NCBI GenBank assembly: GCA_004294095.1
Contig: RDZR01000052.1
Span: forward strand, 1 to 39,018
Source of the DNA: Verrucomicrobiota bacterium
GTDB lineage: Bacteria; Verrucomicrobiota; Verrucomicrobiia; Verrucomicrobiales; Akkermansiaceae
Reading direction: 5' to 3'
Length of the DNA: 39,018 bases
Below are positions 19,589 through 28,791 of the stretch, one piece after another. Position numbers and translations under genes: made by a program. How positions within the stretch are numbered: position 1 is the first letter of the stretch; each line of letters starts with the position of its first letter. The notes under the pieces were generated by a model that was not told the origin of the DNA, searched no databases, and was given only the letters and a program-made list of their open reading frames with translations.

Positions 19589-19753
19589 TTAAACCCACTC
19601 CGCACAAAGCAGCTCCGCCTGTGCAAGCACGGTCTTCACAGCTTCTTCCTGCAAGTCGGGCGGGTAGCCGTGTTTGTTTAGGATGCGCTTCGCTATCACT
19701 TTGATTTTGGCGCGGGCACTTTCGCGGAGGGTCCAATCGATGGTCACGCGGTG
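19589..19753 (-). pseudogene. hsdR: hsdR fragment 3 (extreme C terminus)
   Basis: Minus-strand translation reads [17 protein letters not shown] followed by [18 protein letters not shown]-type sequence (here [18 protein letters not shown]) and a stop. This is the characteristic C-terminal end of type I restriction subunit HsdR (DUF3387 region), about 55 residues. It is cut off from the rest of the gene by insert A. Roughly 90-100 residues that normally precede it are missing. Confidence 0.8.
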
Positions 19754-19830
19754 GGAAAGTGCGAATGAAGAAGTGCGAATGAAGAAGTTTAGGCACTTCG
19801 ACCTTCGGAATTCATACTTCGGACTTCTCC
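19754..19830. repeat. Insert A: miniature TIR-like element in hsdR debris
   Basis: This ~77-bp insert starts with GGGAAAG (19753-19759) and contains two tandem copies of the 14-base unit GCGAATGAAGAAGT. It ends (reverse complement) with GGAGAAGTCCGAAGTATGAA, giving imperfect inverted ends. The composition (GAATGA/GAAGT words) matches inserts B and C. Exact borders are estimated from where HsdR homology stops on each side. Confidence 0.55.
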
Positions 19831-20021
19831 ACGTTCGTCCTTGAGCAGCTTCTCCAGCAGCTCGGCGGCGACGTTCTTGTGCTTAAGGCCGCGCACTTCG
19901 GCGAGGAACTGGTCGCTCAGGATGCTGATGTCCGGCTTGGGCAATCCGGCGGCGGTGAAGACGTCGATCACCTGGCCTTCGGTGGTGATGGCCTTGCTTA
20001 CTAGCTGGCGGATGGCGGCGG
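19831..20021 (-). pseudogene. hsdR: hsdR fragment 2 (C-proximal segment)
   Basis: Minus-strand translation gives [17 protein letters not shown], then [33 protein letters not shown] and [13 protein letters not shown]. This is the HsdR segment that normally lies ~100 residues after the helicase part. It is in a different frame from fragment 1 and runs into stops in insert A, so it cannot be part of a functional protein. Confidence 0.8.
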
Positions 20022-20117
20022 ATTCTGAAGTCTGAGGTAGGAATTATGAATGATGAAACCGACGTGCTGAGAATCATACTTCTGCATTCATCATTCATCA
20101 TTCATCCTTTCTTCCCG
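20022..20117. repeat. Insert B: miniature TIR-like element in hsdR debris
   Basis: This ~96-bp insert lies between two hsdR fragments. On the minus strand it opens with GGGAAGAAAGGATGAATGAT, carries the heptamer-type repeat (ATGAATG)n, and closes with TCATCATTCATAATTCC, so TGAATGATGA and TCATCATTCA form inverted ends. It shifts the hsdR frame and adds a stop. About 90 residues of HsdR are missing at this point as well. Confidence 0.55.
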
Positions 20118-20865
<748 letters not shown>

Positions 20866-20868
20866 GAA

Positions 20869-23800
20869 TTATTCATGCAATTCCGGGCCCATCAGATTCA
20901 GCTGCACCAGAACTGACAGCACGCGGTCTAATGCCCGACAGCAATTCTGAGCGGCAGGGTATTGCCATTTGTCGTCTTTTGTGTGGTCCGCATGGTCTGA
21001 AATCCCACGGACGACGAGAGTTCCTCGTGGTCCACGTAGCGGATTCAATTTTAGTTCATAAAGCGCTTGGCCAAAACCGCCCGCCTCCGTCTCAAGAGCC
21101 AAGGTTTTCTCATTATAAGCTAATAACCACTTCCGAACTTCAGCATCGCGGAATTTAACAACAGCTTCACCAGTTCCGATTGGGCCGAGATGCAATGTGA
21201 ATTGTGACGCGAAAGAGCCGACTGCCGCATCGTGCTCGATTCTATCCACGAGAATCGTGTTAACCACGCTGAGCAAAGTCGGGTCGATATTGTAGCTTTC
21301 GCCGCGATGCTTCGTGCCCGATTCGGTCTCCGCGCGCTTGTCATAGTAAATTGACTGTTCCGCGACGACAACGTCTGTCAGCTTTGCGTCTTTATGGATG
21401 CTGCCTGCAATGCCGAGGAGCACGATCCATTGAGGATTGTAATCGGTAACCATGTCGTTAAACGCGGAAACAATCGACCGATTGCCCTGCGTCAGGGCTT
21501 GTGTAACGGCCACGCGCAATGGCTTCCCGCTGCCGACCGCCTTCGTGCTCGTATAATAAATCCGGCCGCTTGAAGCGACCCGTTGCGGAGCAATCGGGTT
21601 TCCAGGCGATAAATAGTCTAAGATGGCTCTTACCTCAGTTGGGACGATAGCAAGAATACCGACGTCATAGTGCCACTTGCTTTTCCGGGAGGGCAGTTCT
21701 TGTGCTGTCGCGCTGCCCTGCGTCTTTAGAAGGGGCGGCAGGGTCATCGGGAAAGTGAGATCTTGAGCGCTTTCCCCTGTAGCTTGGTCGAGCACAACTC
21801 GCATGGCTTGCGTTGCTTTCGTTAATTGGTAATGCGCACGGGCTCCAGTGGTAGAGCGGTTTGGGTTTGGGATTGGTATGGCGCCTACCTCCGCGCGAAT
21901 CGACTCAAGGAATTCCTGTTGTGTAACGACGTGGAGTTCGTTTTTCTCGGGCAGCCCCAATTTCTGGTCAATAACTGCCGAAGCGCGTTCCCAAAAAATC
22001 GGATTAAGAAATCGGTTTTCGGTTTTTGGACACATGAGCTGCACACCTCGCGGCAACTCAGCGAAGAGGACGGCTCTAACCGGAACGTGTTGTCCGGTGC
22101 TAGCAATGACCTCTGTTGCCATTTGGAGCAACCACTTCCGAGCCGACGGACCATAACCGCAGACCCAGAAGCCGCGAAGCACCGAAGCTTCCTCACTCGG
22201 AATTTGCTGAATGATACATGACTCCTCCTTGCGTGACTTTGCCAACACGGACCGAATTACTTTGCTGCCTCGATCAAACAAGCTTCGGTGCGTTGCTGCA
22301 GGAGCGCCGATATCAATATGTAAGACATGTGGAAAACGAGTGACGGAGAGAACCCGCCCAAAGTTGCCGACCTTAATTGCGGCCTCAGCAAGCAGGGTTC
22401 GGCCTTTCGGAACGAGTCCGTCTAAACGATTGGCTGCATATTCCCGCAATTTCGCCGGTTCAAGTTTGTTCTCGGCGACCCGAGTGCGTGCAAGGTCGAT
22501 GTCGCGCCTTAGCGTGGAATCCATCGCAGCAGTGCAATTAGTAGCAAATTCCGAGGCGATGTTTTCAAGATCGGCAAGAATCTCTACCCGCGCCCTATCC
22601 ATAACCTCAGGTGTGGACTGGAGCGACGGGTTTGCCTCGTAACTCAGCGCCAACATGAGCAAACGGGTGTAGATGTTACTTTCGTAAACCCAAATTGCTT
22701 GTGCCTGTAACAATTCGGTGACTTGGGGATCCTGTCCGTCGCTAGTTGCTTCGCTTTGCGCCGGCCAAAATGAGGTCCAGACCGACTGATACAAGGCATC
22801 GGTCAACCGCTGTGGGATGTCTCGATATACAAGCTGACGCGGAATTCCAGCAATGTGTTTTTCCAATTTCCATTTTGCGCTGTTGATCGCGATGTAAACG
22901 CGCTGCCGACGGAGCCAGTTCAAAACGTTGGTATGTTGGCTGTCGGCCTCGGGAATCGGGCCCGAGTGGGACTTGAATCGGTTGCCGATTCTCAACCACC
23001 CACGACAGAAAATGTCGATCTCGGCTGCCAAAGCAGCGGCGACATCAGTGTCGTTCGCGCAAGTCGCCAATAGGGTCCATTCCTCAAGAGAAACCAATGA
23101 AGCAGCATTCGGGACAGTATTCGGGCGATGTAGGTATCCGATCAAGTTGCCAACCTGTTTAGCTTGGTTTTCAGCGTTCGCATAAACGGAAGCTTCAATG
23201 ATTGTGTCGACTCGGAAGCCTGAGCCGGGGCCATCTGGCATCGGGGTTTCGTGAATTACGCCGTGCTCTTCCAATAAGTGACTCAGCCACCGTTCTTCGT
23301 CGTGTCCGTAAAGGTCGGCAACCTCTGACTGGGCAACCGCTCCATGGAGTGAAAATCTAATGCCGACAGTCCCAGGTGACCCAGAGACGCCCAAGAATGG
23401 ATGAAGAAACCTTTGTTGAACACCGATTCGTATCAGGAGCACCAAAAGCTTTTCGACTAGCAGATGTGGTAGAACGGAACGTTTGGATGCATTGGAACAT
23501 GCCTGTAGCGCTAGTCCGAATAGCCGGATTTCTGCTCTGCTGAATAGCACGTCTTCACCATGGCGATATGCGCGAAACACTTTGCCATTCCGCTCTGTTG
23601 TAATCGGAACCACGACTCCCCGGTCGATTGCTTGGTCGAGGAATAGAGAGACCGCCTCCGTAGCATCGCTGCCAAGGTGGGCCATGTGCTCCTGAAGTTG
23701 GGTGTGAGAATATCCTCGTTCAAGCCGATTAAAAGGCGACAAATCTCTGACTTCTTCCCACTTATCAGGAGAAAGCATTCGGCCACCGGATTGTGCTTGG

Positions 23801-24999
23801 CGCTCTGTGGTGCGCTCCAGCTCGACGAAAGGCTTCGAAAGGCGTGCACGAATCGACGGAATGTCCCGAGTCATGCTCCGCGCATCAGGTCGCAATTCCA
23901 AATCCGGCGGATCGGAGGCAAAGGTGGCGGGCGGGGCACCTTTGAATAATCGTTCGCGACTCTCGACGAGCCGCTGGACCAACCCAAATGACGGTGGTGA
24001 GAACAGGCTCTCCAACATCCGGCGGGAATGACCTAGAACTGGCCGCTTCAGAACGTGGCGCGCAACTCCTTCCAACCAAACACAAGCTAGGCACGACGCG
24101 GCGAGGTAGTGCAACAACCGCAACCGCGACGTTGGTGAGGTGAAAAATGCCCAAGCTGGATCTTCTGGGTAGCCGCTGTTAATTTTCAACCTTGCCCAGA
24201 GTGCGTCTAATTCGCCTCCACTCATCGCTTGGAAGATCACAATTGGAAGTGCCGAGCATTGCCAAAACGAATTCTTCTCTGGGTGTTGGCGGATGTAGAG
24301 CCGGATTTTCACGAGAGACAGTGGAGCGCAGCTCCATCCAAGGCGATTTTCGAATTCGGCCAAGACCTCGGGTGGAGGTGAGCATGTGATTGAAAAAACT
24401 CCGTGCTCCCGCTGCCAAGGAGACGACACGTCGCGTGCACTCCAAACAGGCAGGCCAAATAGTGCCTGCAGCGACCTCTCGGGGACTCGGAGTTGCGAGA
24501 ACACCGGGTAGTCGGCCGCATAAGGCATTGGCAGGACTGAGATCGCGTCGACTATCGTGGCGCACACTGAAACCACTTGTGCGTGCGGCAGCACAAGAAA
24601 TGGTGGCGATGGTTCGATCTTAGCGCGATCCCATCGCTCCTTGCTCACGCAGAGCACAGACGCCTGAACGTCCGCAGCGCCGGCCCTTAAAAACTCGTCG
24701 CGGGCAGTTGCTAGGGTGCTTCCAAATACTACGACATCGTCAATCAACGTCACGCGCTTGCCCTTCACCCAACTCAAATCCATGTCTTTGACCCGGTCGG
24801 AGGTCACCGTCGCATTGAGGGCAGTCAAACCGAGGGCGTCGAGGCCGTTAATAAGGCATGTAGCCTTTCGGGCCATAGTGACGAAAATGTCGGTCTTTGT
24901 ATGGCTAAGCCGCTTCCCGAATTCGATTAAGTGGGGGCGAATCGACGGTTCAAACTGGGCGAGGAATGCCTCTTGGCTCGAAAGAATTTTATGACTCAT
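20869..24999 (-). CDS. PRTase-like / winged-helix-like / nucleoside-phosphorylase-fold multidomain protein
   Basis: This 1376-residue protein is of a composition I cannot match to a named system. Residues ~1-160 look like a phosphoribosyltransferase fold, with a PRPP-binding-type loop [18 protein letters not shown] (83-100; acidic pair D87-D88). Residues ~425-490 ([25 protein letters not shown]) look like a winged helix-turn-helix. The long middle is mostly helical with no motif I can name. Residues ~1110-1365 form a nucleoside phosphorylase/nucleosidase-type domain: [26 protein letters not shown] (G1196), LALETEAGG (E1303/E1305) and VRGISDHAD with the catalytic-type D1335. No signal peptide or membrane segment is evident. 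It is the last gene of a three-gene minus-strand cassette, 45 bases after the methylase. It is probably an effector acting on nucleotides, which is inference. Confidence 0.8.
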
Positions 25000-27361: not shown

Positions 27362-27637
27362 TTAATTTAGTGACAGGTGGCTGCGGCCAGCACCGATGAG
27401 GGTGCCGCGTTGGCGGACGTCGATGAAGCGTGTCTGCTTGCGGCGGTCGCGCAAGCCGCGTTTGGCGTCGGCGGTTTTGTTTTTCGCGAGGAACCAGAGG
27501 CAGACGGGGATCTGCGTGCTGTAGAAGAGCTGGCCGGGGAGGGCGACCATGCAGTCCACGAGGTCGGCCTCGATGAGGGCGCGGCGGATGTCGCCTTCGC
27601 CGGACTGGTTGGAGGACATGCTGCCGTTGGCGAGGAC
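27362..27637 (-). pseudogene. hsdM: hsdM fragment 2 (internal/C-proximal segment)
   Basis: Minus-strand translation VLANGSMSSNQSGEGDIRRA, then DLVDCMVALPGQLFYSTQIP, VCLWFLAKNKTADAKRG and RRKQTRFIDVRQRGTLIG is the conserved downstream part of the type I methylase HsdM. It terminates early in RSHLSLN and a stop, right where the ParB-like gene begins, so the C-terminal part of HsdM is missing. Insert C separates it from the N-terminal fragment, and the catalytic core (SAM motif, NPPF) is missing between the two. Confidence 0.85.
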
Positions 27638-28112
27638 GGGGAAAGTGGGAAGTAAGAATGATGAATGAAGAAGTGGAAGACCGTCTTCCTTTCTCATTCT
27701 GCCTTTTGATTTCCACCCTCGCGGGCTTTTTTGATAATCGTGACGAAGATGGCGGTCAGTTCGTCGCACTCGGCACGAAGCGGTTGCAGTTTGGTCGCTG
27801 GCACGATTTCTCCATCGACGAGGAGTTCCAGCCAATACGCGGATTCTTCCAACTCCCGCAGAGAGTCGCCGCATTTTGCGATGAACTCTGCTTTGCTTCG
27901 GCCGCGGTGAGCTTCGCGGTAATTCGCCCCGACGGATGTTCCCGAGCGGAGCAGTTGTTTGCCCAGCATCTGAGCTTCCGTCGATTTCGGCAGGCTTCCG
28001 AACAGGCGGATGATTCGCAGCGCAAACTGTTTGGTCCGGTCCTTGAGGTCGTTTTCTTCCTTCATGGTTTTGATTTTCCTCCTCCTTCTTCATTCTGACT
28101 TCAACCTTTCCC
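27638..28112 (-). mobile_element. Insert C: IVS-like element carrying a four-helix-bundle gene, inside hsdM
   Basis: This ~475-bp element interrupts hsdM. Its ends are imperfect inverted repeats: the left reads GGGAAAGTGGGAAGTAAGAA, and the right (reverse complement) reads GGGAAAGGTTGAAGTCAGAA, both followed by ATGAAGAAG-type sequence. It carries one gene (27694-28065). The hsdM reading frame stays open across the whole element, in a different frame from the internal gene. About 240 residues of HsdM are missing at the insertion point, so this was not a simple clean insertion. It may move like the intervening sequences found in bacterial 23S rRNA genes, which often encode this protein family. 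Confidence 0.6.
27694..28065 (-). CDS. Four-helix-bundle protein (23S rRNA IVS / S23 / bAvd-like family)
   Basis: This intact 123-residue protein belongs to the family first described from intervening sequences in 23S rRNA and related to the bAvd accessory proteins of diversity-generating retroelements. Diagnostic blocks are LKDRTKQFALRIIRLFGSLP (7-26), MLGKQLLRSGTSVGANYREA (33-52), RGRSKAEFIAK and LEESAYWLELL. It is predicted to form a pentameric nucleic-acid-binding helical bundle (family knowledge). A strong Shine-Dalgarno, AAGGAGGAGG, lies about a dozen bases before the ATG. It sits between inverted repeats inside hsdM debris. Its role in mobility is unproven. Confidence 0.9.
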   Translation of the reverse strand: MKEENDLKDRTKQFALRIIRLFGSLPKSTEAQMLGKQLLRSGTSVGANYREAHRGRSKAEFIAKCGDSLRELEESAYWLELLVDGEIVPATKLQPLRAECDELTAIFVTIIKKAREGGNQKAE

Positions 28113-28282
28113 TCGGTGTCGGAGATGTATTTGAGGAAGATGAGGCCGAGGACGACGTGCTTGTATTCCGCCGCGTCCATGTTGTTGCGGAGCTTGTCGG
28201 CGGCGAGCCAGAGCTTAGCCTCGAAGCCGATGGTAGCGGTGGAGGCTGAATCGGATGCTGTGGCTTTGCGTTTGGCGGGCAT
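28113..28282 (-). pseudogene. hsdM: hsdM fragment 1 (N terminus)
   Basis: From the ATG at 28282, the minus-strand translation MPAKRKATASDSAST leads into LWLAADKLRNNMDAAEYKHV and VLGLIFLKYISDTEG, the N-terminal helical domain of a type I methylase subunit. Homology stops at the TIR of insert C after about 57 residues. Without the catalytic core it cannot methylate DNA. The N-terminal part may still be translated because its start and upstream region look intact. Confidence 0.85.
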
Positions 28283-28791
28283 AAGGAAAGCGGCGGAGGT
28301 TAAGGAGTTACTACGATGATGGTTCACTTTCTTTATGGGTGAACGTTAGCTTTGTATTGAGGGAATGCGCAAGTTCATACGCTCATGTTGGAGTCGTTAA
28401 AGGGTGGGTTGGTGAGAGAGTAGGAGGTGCGCAAGTCGCGACGGTAGGTGTCGACCTGCTCGGGGTAGAAGCCGCCTCGGCATCATTCATGGCCGTGGAA
28501 TCGGAAATGAAAGCAGACGGCTCCACGCCTAATGCATGGTTTCGCGTCGCCGCACGGCGCAAAGAATAAGCACACGGATTTTTCAAAACGCCAGCAATCG
28601 CAGCTTGCTCGGCACGCTCCTTGAGCTGCGCCTAGGTAGAGCGTTGTCATCCCACGCAATGGTCTTCGTGCTGGTAATCGCGGTGCCGATTTCAAGATTT
28701 TCGTAGCACGAGATGAGTTAAACACATGAGCAAGTGAGCGCAATTTCTTGCCAAGTCGGAATTCGGATATTTAACTCCGGCACCTTTTCCC
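28283..28791. other. Degenerate right edge of the island, upstream of lysC
   Basis: This ~509-base stretch has no intact gene. On the minus strand at about 28370-28480 a short frame reads GGFYPEQVDTYRRDLRTSYS followed by LTNPPFNDSNMSV and a stop. NPPF is the catalytic motif of N6-adenine methylases, so this may be another methylase relic. A second frame at about 28590-28700 reads EIGTAITSTKTIAWDDNALP and stops; I cannot place it. The lysC promoter presumably lies in the last ~60 bases. I see no riboswitch-like structure. Confidence 0.4.

Follow-up and report, generated by a model that had tools for sequence, protein, structure and literature searches.

In Coxiella burnetii, the 23S rRNA is interrupted by an intervening sequence (IVS) in which direct heptameric repeats (GACAGAT) precede the S23p open reading frame and complementary ends form a 28-bp terminal stem that is cut by RNase III, according to the sections at hand of a 2016 paper (PMC4990558). 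The same sections state that an IVS takes the place of the small tetraloop in its rRNA helix, and that the origin of rRNA IVSs and the role of S23p are still unclear although these were discovered more than 25 years ago. Heptameric repeats, GGGAATC in Xanthomonas and GGGGA(C/T)T in Nostoc, are described in the available portion of another paper (PMC4692102).

The window, i.e. the whole 39,018-nt stretch of DNA that was analysed, belongs to contig C9 of a draft genome (3.0 Mb, 113 contigs). It contains three inserts (A, B and C) sited in remnants of the type I restriction genes hsdR and hsdM, not in rRNA. An earlier note, made from the letters of the window, had taken A and B to be geneless MITE-type derivatives of the four-helix-bundle element, insert C. 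This reading is partly supported by the present analysis: it was right in kind and wrong in detail. We think it reasonably probable that A and B are non-coding short hairpin elements of the IVS class outside rRNA, and that the accompanying deletions came about via recombination between copies or via insertional exchange.

Results

Inserts A, B and C take the place of restriction gene segments

All host remnants are read from the minus strand. In gene sense, the hsdR remnant upstream of insert B (20120-20861; SWI2_SNF2 / T1R_D3-like by Pfam) is followed by insert B (20021-20119), a remnant between inserts B and A that is 97% identical to genome G072 (19833-20020), insert A (19750-19832) and the hsdR 3' end up to the stop codon (19589-19749). 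The hsdM gene consists of a 5' remnant before insert C (28115-28327; HsdM_N by Pfam), insert C itself (27639-28114, minus strand) and a 3' remnant after it (27362-27638; N6_Mtase by Pfam). A 1376-aa ORF on the minus strand (20869-24999) directly abuts the truncated hsdR, which lacks its 5' part at that place. The ORF has a C-terminal phosphorylase domain (PNP_UDP_1), and its remainder has no Pfam match at 1e-3.

When the window was aligned to G072, whose flanks are 87-97% identical at the DNA level, insert A was found to put 83 nt in place of 294 nt of hsdR, insert B 99 nt in place of 338 nt of hsdR, and insert C 476 nt in place of 938 nt of hsdM. The length of insert B was 96 nt under another aligner setting, and its right border is fixed only to within some bases, as its last seven letters, CAGAATC, are also found in the missing host segment. 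The sizes first given for A (about 77 bp) and B (about 96 bp) hold within a few bases. Their description as plain insertions does not, because 0.3-0.9 kb of host sequence is missing at each insert.

In genomes G074, G203, G209, G148 and G171, the hsdR spacings taken from match ends were 294-296 nt and 335-340 nt at the same places, and in four loci (L131, L132, L133 and L134) hsdR aligned to that of G072 without any break of at least 15 nt. The spacing at insert C, also by match ends, was 844, 842 and 876 nt in G209, G069 and G016, respectively, compared to 938 nt in G072, which is an imperfect reference in that its hsdM is itself broken by an in-frame TGA in the DPACGSGG motif (L162) and has an approximately 82-nt palindrome that many other alleles lack. 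Matches to the hsdR and hsdM stretches, many of them partial, were obtained in 105 and 94 of the 239 genomes of the order, respectively. Among plasmid records, a search for HsdM yielded nothing closer than distant homologues, which were left out of the comparison. Read against these alleles, A, B and C each stand where part of the host gene is gone, in a restriction locus undergoing decay.

Seven-base inverted arms are common to the three inserts

Insert A is an 83-nt heptamer-armed hairpin, insert B a 99-nt heptamer-armed hairpin with inverted repeats, and insert C a 476-nt element in which heptamer arms enclose an ORF. When A, B and the arms of C were read by sevens, one side was found to consist of GAANNNN units and the other of NNNNTTC units, with GAA or TTC at every seventh base, and imperfect inverted ends were present in the inserts. 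The heptamer arms of all three end approximately 10 nt or less from the host boundary on both sides (by eye). The words listed in the earlier note are there as claimed: GGGAAAG at one end of insert A and at both ends of insert C, GGGAAG at one end of insert B on the minus strand, GAATGATGAATGA in inserts B and C, and GAATGAAGAAG in inserts A and C. Beyond GGGAA(A)G, the three inserts have no terminal sequence in common. The 14-nt tandem duplication in insert A (19757-19784, plus strand) is exact, with positions 19757-19770 equal to 19771-19784, and is made of two 7-nt units repeated.

Among 2000 dinucleotide shuffles, a single one reached the lag-7 self-match of insert A (21 did so at any lag from 3 to 12) and none reached that of insert B (none at any lag from 3 to 12). 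For the right arm of insert C the lag-7 self-match was reached in 1 of 2000 shuffles (10 at any of these lags), and for the short left arm of C alone it was not significant (112 of 2000, and 702 at any of these lags). Folding z-scores were -3.4 on either strand for insert A, and -2.8 and -2.1 for insert B. The stem score of insert C is weak, 15.5, under the 95% point of mismatched pairs (17.5), and insert C scores 15 in the lag-7 array test, in which the threshold is 16 of 21.

The ORF that fills insert C (27694-28065, minus strand, 123 aa) encodes an S23p / 23S rRNA-intervening-sequence protein (PF05635, 74.9 bits, cut-off 33.8) and not a transposase; PDB chain 2rld_A (E 6e-23) is the only solved relative that was found by sequence at E 0.01. 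As had been proposed, A and B carry no gene: neither an ORF of at least 90 aa nor an S23p ORF was found inside either insert.

These findings show that inserts A and B are genuine, non-random features, though not simple insertions. From their 7-nt inverted arms, together with the S23p-linked arrays, the geneless copies elsewhere and the empty sites described below, we conclude that A and B are of one element class with C, as geneless, heptamer-armed hairpins that are probably of the IVS class. The kinship of A and B with C is borne out by a common arm architecture and common 7-nt words.

Host loss accompanies heptad inserts and breakpoints recur

Alleles were compared for hsdR (the window and 40 loci) and hsdM (the window and 39 loci), with duplicates removed by hand. 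Inserts of at least 45 nt in alleles of at least 78% identity were counted, and those with a run of at least three GAA/TTC heptads were placed in the heptad class. Among 68 inserts, host loss of at least 40 nt was found in 11 of 12 heptad inserts compared to 8 of 56 others (Fisher p 5e-7), in a table whose rows are not independent, the window giving three and L099, L100 and L193 two each, and in which some of the eight non-heptad losses may stem from divergence or separate deletions. The exception among heptad inserts is an 85-nt clean insertion in L100 with 4 nt lost, and a copy in L246 stands for approximately 17 nt of host, so that a large deletion is not obligatory. The 85-nt element of L100 matches the element of L214, which stands for 217 nt, in 72 of 87 aligned columns, loop included, and the two occupy different hsdM sites; five other hairpins matched the 85-nt element in 51-58 of 87-91 columns.

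If A and B were true MITEs, i.e. deletion derivatives of C moved in trans by the four-helix-bundle protein, the host deletions would have to be later, unrelated decay. Five alleles of hsdR or hsdM (L140, L192, L209, L221 and L228) do lose segments with next to no insert. The unequal association of host loss with heptad and other inserts argues against such decay as the cause.

The hsdR and hsdM genes of these bacteria also contain up to six different short palindromes per gene, mostly as clean insertions (L135, L189, L191, L203-L207, L210-L212 and others). The families found there include TGACTCCTTCG...CTCGGC, approximately 82 nt long, and GAGCGGAGCGAGACAG, approximately 60 nt long.

Several breakpoints are common to different alleles. 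The hsdM right end at 1231 was found in the window, L099 and L101, and that at 1178 in L100 and L212; hsdM left ends at 797-799 recur in L099, L100 and L214, and the hsdR right end at 1576-1578 is common to insert B of the window and L193. The S23p ORFs of the window, L099, L100 and L101 are 89-92% identical at the DNA level. The right arm is common to the window, L099 and L101 (end 1231) and their left arms differ, while L099 and L100 have a common left site (approximately 799) and left arm. The left arm of the window pairs better with the right arm of L100 (24) than with its own right arm (18), in an arm-pair matrix that is clear only for the window and in which the left arm of L101 singles out no partner. 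In G108 (L212), a distant S23p ORF lies between hsdM breakpoints 450 and 1178. Both parental insertions at the breakpoints of the window were found in none of the alleles compared. Since the arms go with their site, the alignments would fit recombination between copies at different sites, each copy bringing its own arm.

The hsdR of L193 (G173:C599) contains an out-of-order piece (by eye), a segment that ends at the left breakpoint of insert A being joined via a heptamer hairpin to the right breakpoint of insert B. A target preference for host TTC is not claimed: 6 of 11 hsdM breakpoints touch TTC (background 0.066) and 0 of 7 hsdR breakpoints do so, in a count that was picked after the data were seen.

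Copies elsewhere and empty sites in relatives

A scan of the window's own genome with a 19-mer of this type, allowing up to three mismatches, gave 19 forward and 7 reverse matches and none in the reversed control. The matches fall on inserts B and C, not on A. Others fall on the arms of a second S23p gene (ORF C26:259-627), on an inverted pair that has no gene and includes a long array of TTCATCC (C26:3461-3706), on a short geneless copy near a contig end (C77:48-73) and on four single words, of which two are on C36, one on C50 and one on C76. A CTCAAAT heptamer array at a contig end accompanies a third S23p gene (C5). The same word class is found in A, B, C and the C26 copies. Geneless copies are abundant in family f4 as well, and the further genome copies foreseen in the earlier note do exist. 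The gene that hosts the C77 copy is presumably RHS-like; this label, like ispG, kinase-like gene, toxin-antitoxin-like and REP-like, is a putative one assigned from the sequence.

The position of some copies at contig ends (C5 and C77) in a draft of 113 contigs would suit an assembly artefact, in which short-read joins across repeated hairpins dropped gene segments. Against it, insert A taken together with its flanks matches the own genome at a single place, and hairpins are found at the same breakpoints in other assemblies, though mostly drafts (L099, L100, L101, L193, L212 and L214), and we judge an artefact very unlikely.

The hairpin pattern was found in 40 of the 239 genomes of the order, compared to 2 of 239 for the reversed control, and several genomes of genus g19 contain 40 to 89 overlapping pattern matches. 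Six elements of G102 and G209 have the ends AATGAC...GTCATT and are 83, 83, 83, 80, 114 and 82 nt long; the three G102 copies, 83 nt each, have the fixed ends AATGACGAA...TTCGTCATT. The constant 23-nt loop of these three copies was considered as a CRISPR-like signature and dropped, since 36 loops, measured in elements hand-picked from hairpin listings, are all different and range from 4 to 41 nt.

Orthologous loci of relatives contain empty sites. The element of L250 is common to L298 and absent in L296 and L297. At the site of L246, an element with the same words is found in L305 and none in L299 and L300. The element of L255 is common to L312 and L313 and absent in L310, and L311 keeps a short piece of it; the element of L261 is absent in L307. 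In other species, palindromes with other words are found at the L246 site (L301-L304, L306 and L315), and at the L257 site units of the GTCTCAN type are found in L314. Several hairpin word families make use of places that tolerate insertion. A stop-free frame of more than 370 codons (377-400) runs through the element in 3 of 20 loci (L246, L250 and L257), and shorter frames run through it in some others of the 20, so that peptides derived from the element can sit inside predicted proteins, as the earlier note had suggested.

The freely varying words and unit numbers, the long TTCATCC array on C26 and the presence of different word families at the same gene sites in different species would all agree with growth in place, in which a 7-nt unit multiplies by replication slippage and is carried over to the other arm by template switching, deletions are by-products and nothing moves. 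Heptamer simple repeats are over-represented in many bacterial genomes according to the sections at hand of PMC4692102. We nevertheless hold growth in place to be distinctly improbable, because the same 85-nt element, loop included, is found at two different hsdM positions, the ends of the three 83-nt G102 copies are fixed, and S23p ORFs lie inside such arms in records from several phyla.

S23p genes are associated with seven-base arrays

The S23p genes analysed were 30 of the order, 30 relatives of insert C, three of the own genome (including the window) and that of G108, from which 6 of 64 were dropped for lack of an ORF at the assumed place (L128, L070, L072, L086, L087 and L092). An array was scored when at least 16 of 21 positions matched at lag 7 near the gene. 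A lag-7 array was found beside 42 of the 58 remaining S23p genes, a non-random set in that the loci of the order are among its best-scoring S23p matches and the others are mostly relatives of insert C, compared to 0 of 58 at the other lags from 4 to 12 and one at lag 3; control flanks 0.8-1 kb away had a lag-7 array in 4 of 55. In an earlier pass on 30 S23p genes in which strand was ignored, lag 7 was found in 12 of 30 and lags 4-6 and 8-11 in none. A second set, made up of 26 S23p genes of five genomes rich in hairpins, included 9 with a lag-7 array and 3 with GAATG words in their arms. The median stem score over the 58 loci was 18.0 compared to 8.5 for mismatched pairs, and 31 of 58 lay above the 95% point.

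The arm-word class tracks the S23p tree, with 10 changes over 41 rows compared to 13-15 in 300 shuffles, and 6 changes compared to 7-12 shuffled within one S23p clade of 16 rows, the classes having been made by crude single-linkage in which some different words are lumped. The insert-C clade is accompanied by words of the GAANNNN class in Verrucomicrobia, Chloroflexi, Herpetosiphon, Planctomycetales, Bacteroidota and Calditrichaeota, as named in record titles only. Several S23p elements (own C26, L112, L115, L116, L118 and L125) begin just past a stop codon and end just ahead of a start codon (by eye).

S23p elements with GAANNNN words were also seen at different positions in two genomes (L033, G000:C26 237-652, and L114), in what we take to be a mod/res-like restriction locus beside a toxin-antitoxin-like pair. 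Restriction loci recur as hosts of S23p elements.

S23p resembles the Avd partner of diversity-generating retroelements. A reverse transcriptase partner of this type was considered and set aside, since no RVT_1 match was obtained in G072, a 96%-complete genome that has many hairpins and in which S23p was matched 10 times. The own genome has one RVT_1 match, on another contig than the window. Matches to Y1_Tnp, the type of transposase that partners REP/RAYT palindromes, numbered 7 in the own genome and 10-27 in four relatives.

The proposal that A and B are MITEs of a four-helix-bundle element is consistent with the arm class and words common to A, B and C, and with the presence of S23p-bearing and geneless copies with the same words in the own genome (C26). 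Derivation of A and B from such an element was left unsupported by the genome comparisons. Across 48 g19 genomes, the numbers of hairpins (overlapping pattern matches, not element numbers) and of S23p genes were weakly correlated (rho 0.25, p 0.08); this correlation, weak and non-significant, was rejected as proof of mobilisation by S23p. G209, a draft with 8% contamination, has 22 listed hairpins and no S23p gene over the cut-off (three sub-cut-off matches), and GAATG words flank few of the S23p genes in hairpin-rich genomes (the 3 of 26 above). The 36 differing loops give no common inner sequence from a parent. No target-site duplication was seen by eye in the six G102 and G209 elements or at the sites with empty alleles. 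A MITE origin is in our opinion unlikely.

Discussion

The reading of A and B as IVS-class hairpins builds on what was observed, namely arms with a seven-base period, heptamer arrays beside many S23p genes, elements that are present in some relatives and missing from others, and the replacement of host segments. The arms of such an element would be arrays of degenerate 7-nt units (here GAANNNN / NNNNTTC) inverted around a variable loop, and in the long form, such as insert C, the loop would hold the S23p (PF05635) four-helix-bundle ORF. The class would be that of the bacterial 'intervening sequence' (IVS), which is chiefly known from 23S rRNA and would here be present in protein-coding genes and tight intergenic gaps. 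Deletions may arise when two copies at different sites recombine via their similar arrays, leaving one hybrid copy; alternatively, insertion itself may swap host sequence for the element. Once transcribed, the hairpin would form an RNase III-type stem. The predicted outcome is loss of the restriction enzyme. That S23p acts on the arms to spread the elements is a guess.

A broader interpretation, which we put forward tentatively and do not expect to hold in full, is that S23p/IVS elements might form a large superfamily of mobile hairpins with heptamer arms, in which each S23p lineage would have a 7-nt word to itself and coding and geneless copies would occupy gaps and protein genes across several phyla. 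Such elements could swap host segments on insertion or by recombination between copies, and rRNA IVSs could be the special case where a host helix tolerates them.

Copies in protein genes, geneless relatives, empty sites and lineage-linked 7-nt words provide material on which IVS movement and S23p binding can be tested. Unusual in-frame peptides in proteins predicted for these bacteria can also be explained by the elements, and the locus shows one way in which a restriction system is taken apart.

In searches of open-access papers, none was recognised that links heptamer arrays to S23p elements located in protein genes. In heterocystous cyanobacteria, the STRR heptamers and the heptamer hairpins in P6b of the tRNA-Leu(UAA) intron are built of 7-nt units, with arms that are complementary and with words of two classes at a single site; we know of no S23p gene in them. 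The TAACTGA repeats of marine Beggiatoaceae are, like the window elements, 7-nt tandem units at many loci that are patchy across distant bacteria, but they are direct repeats, lie mostly upstream of start codons and are proposed to be regulatory, and the terms '23S', 'four helix' and 'intervening' are absent from the portion of that paper at hand (PMC4679880). In two Xanthomonas strains, 70 and 75 pairs of closely spaced convergent arrays, i.e. inverted ones, resemble the window elements. In contrast to the latter, the Xanthomonas and Nostoc heptamers are treated as quadruplex-forming simple repeats, and in the available sections of the paper no gene replacement by them was seen and 'four helix' does not occur (PMC4692102). 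The rRNA IVS of Coxiella burnetii, as described in the sections at hand, has in common with the elements reported here an S23p ORF in the loop, complementary ends and heptameric repeats (PMC4990558). The window elements differ from it in that they lie in protein genes and intergenic gaps, use other heptamer words, have geneless short forms and are accompanied by host losses of hundreds of nt.
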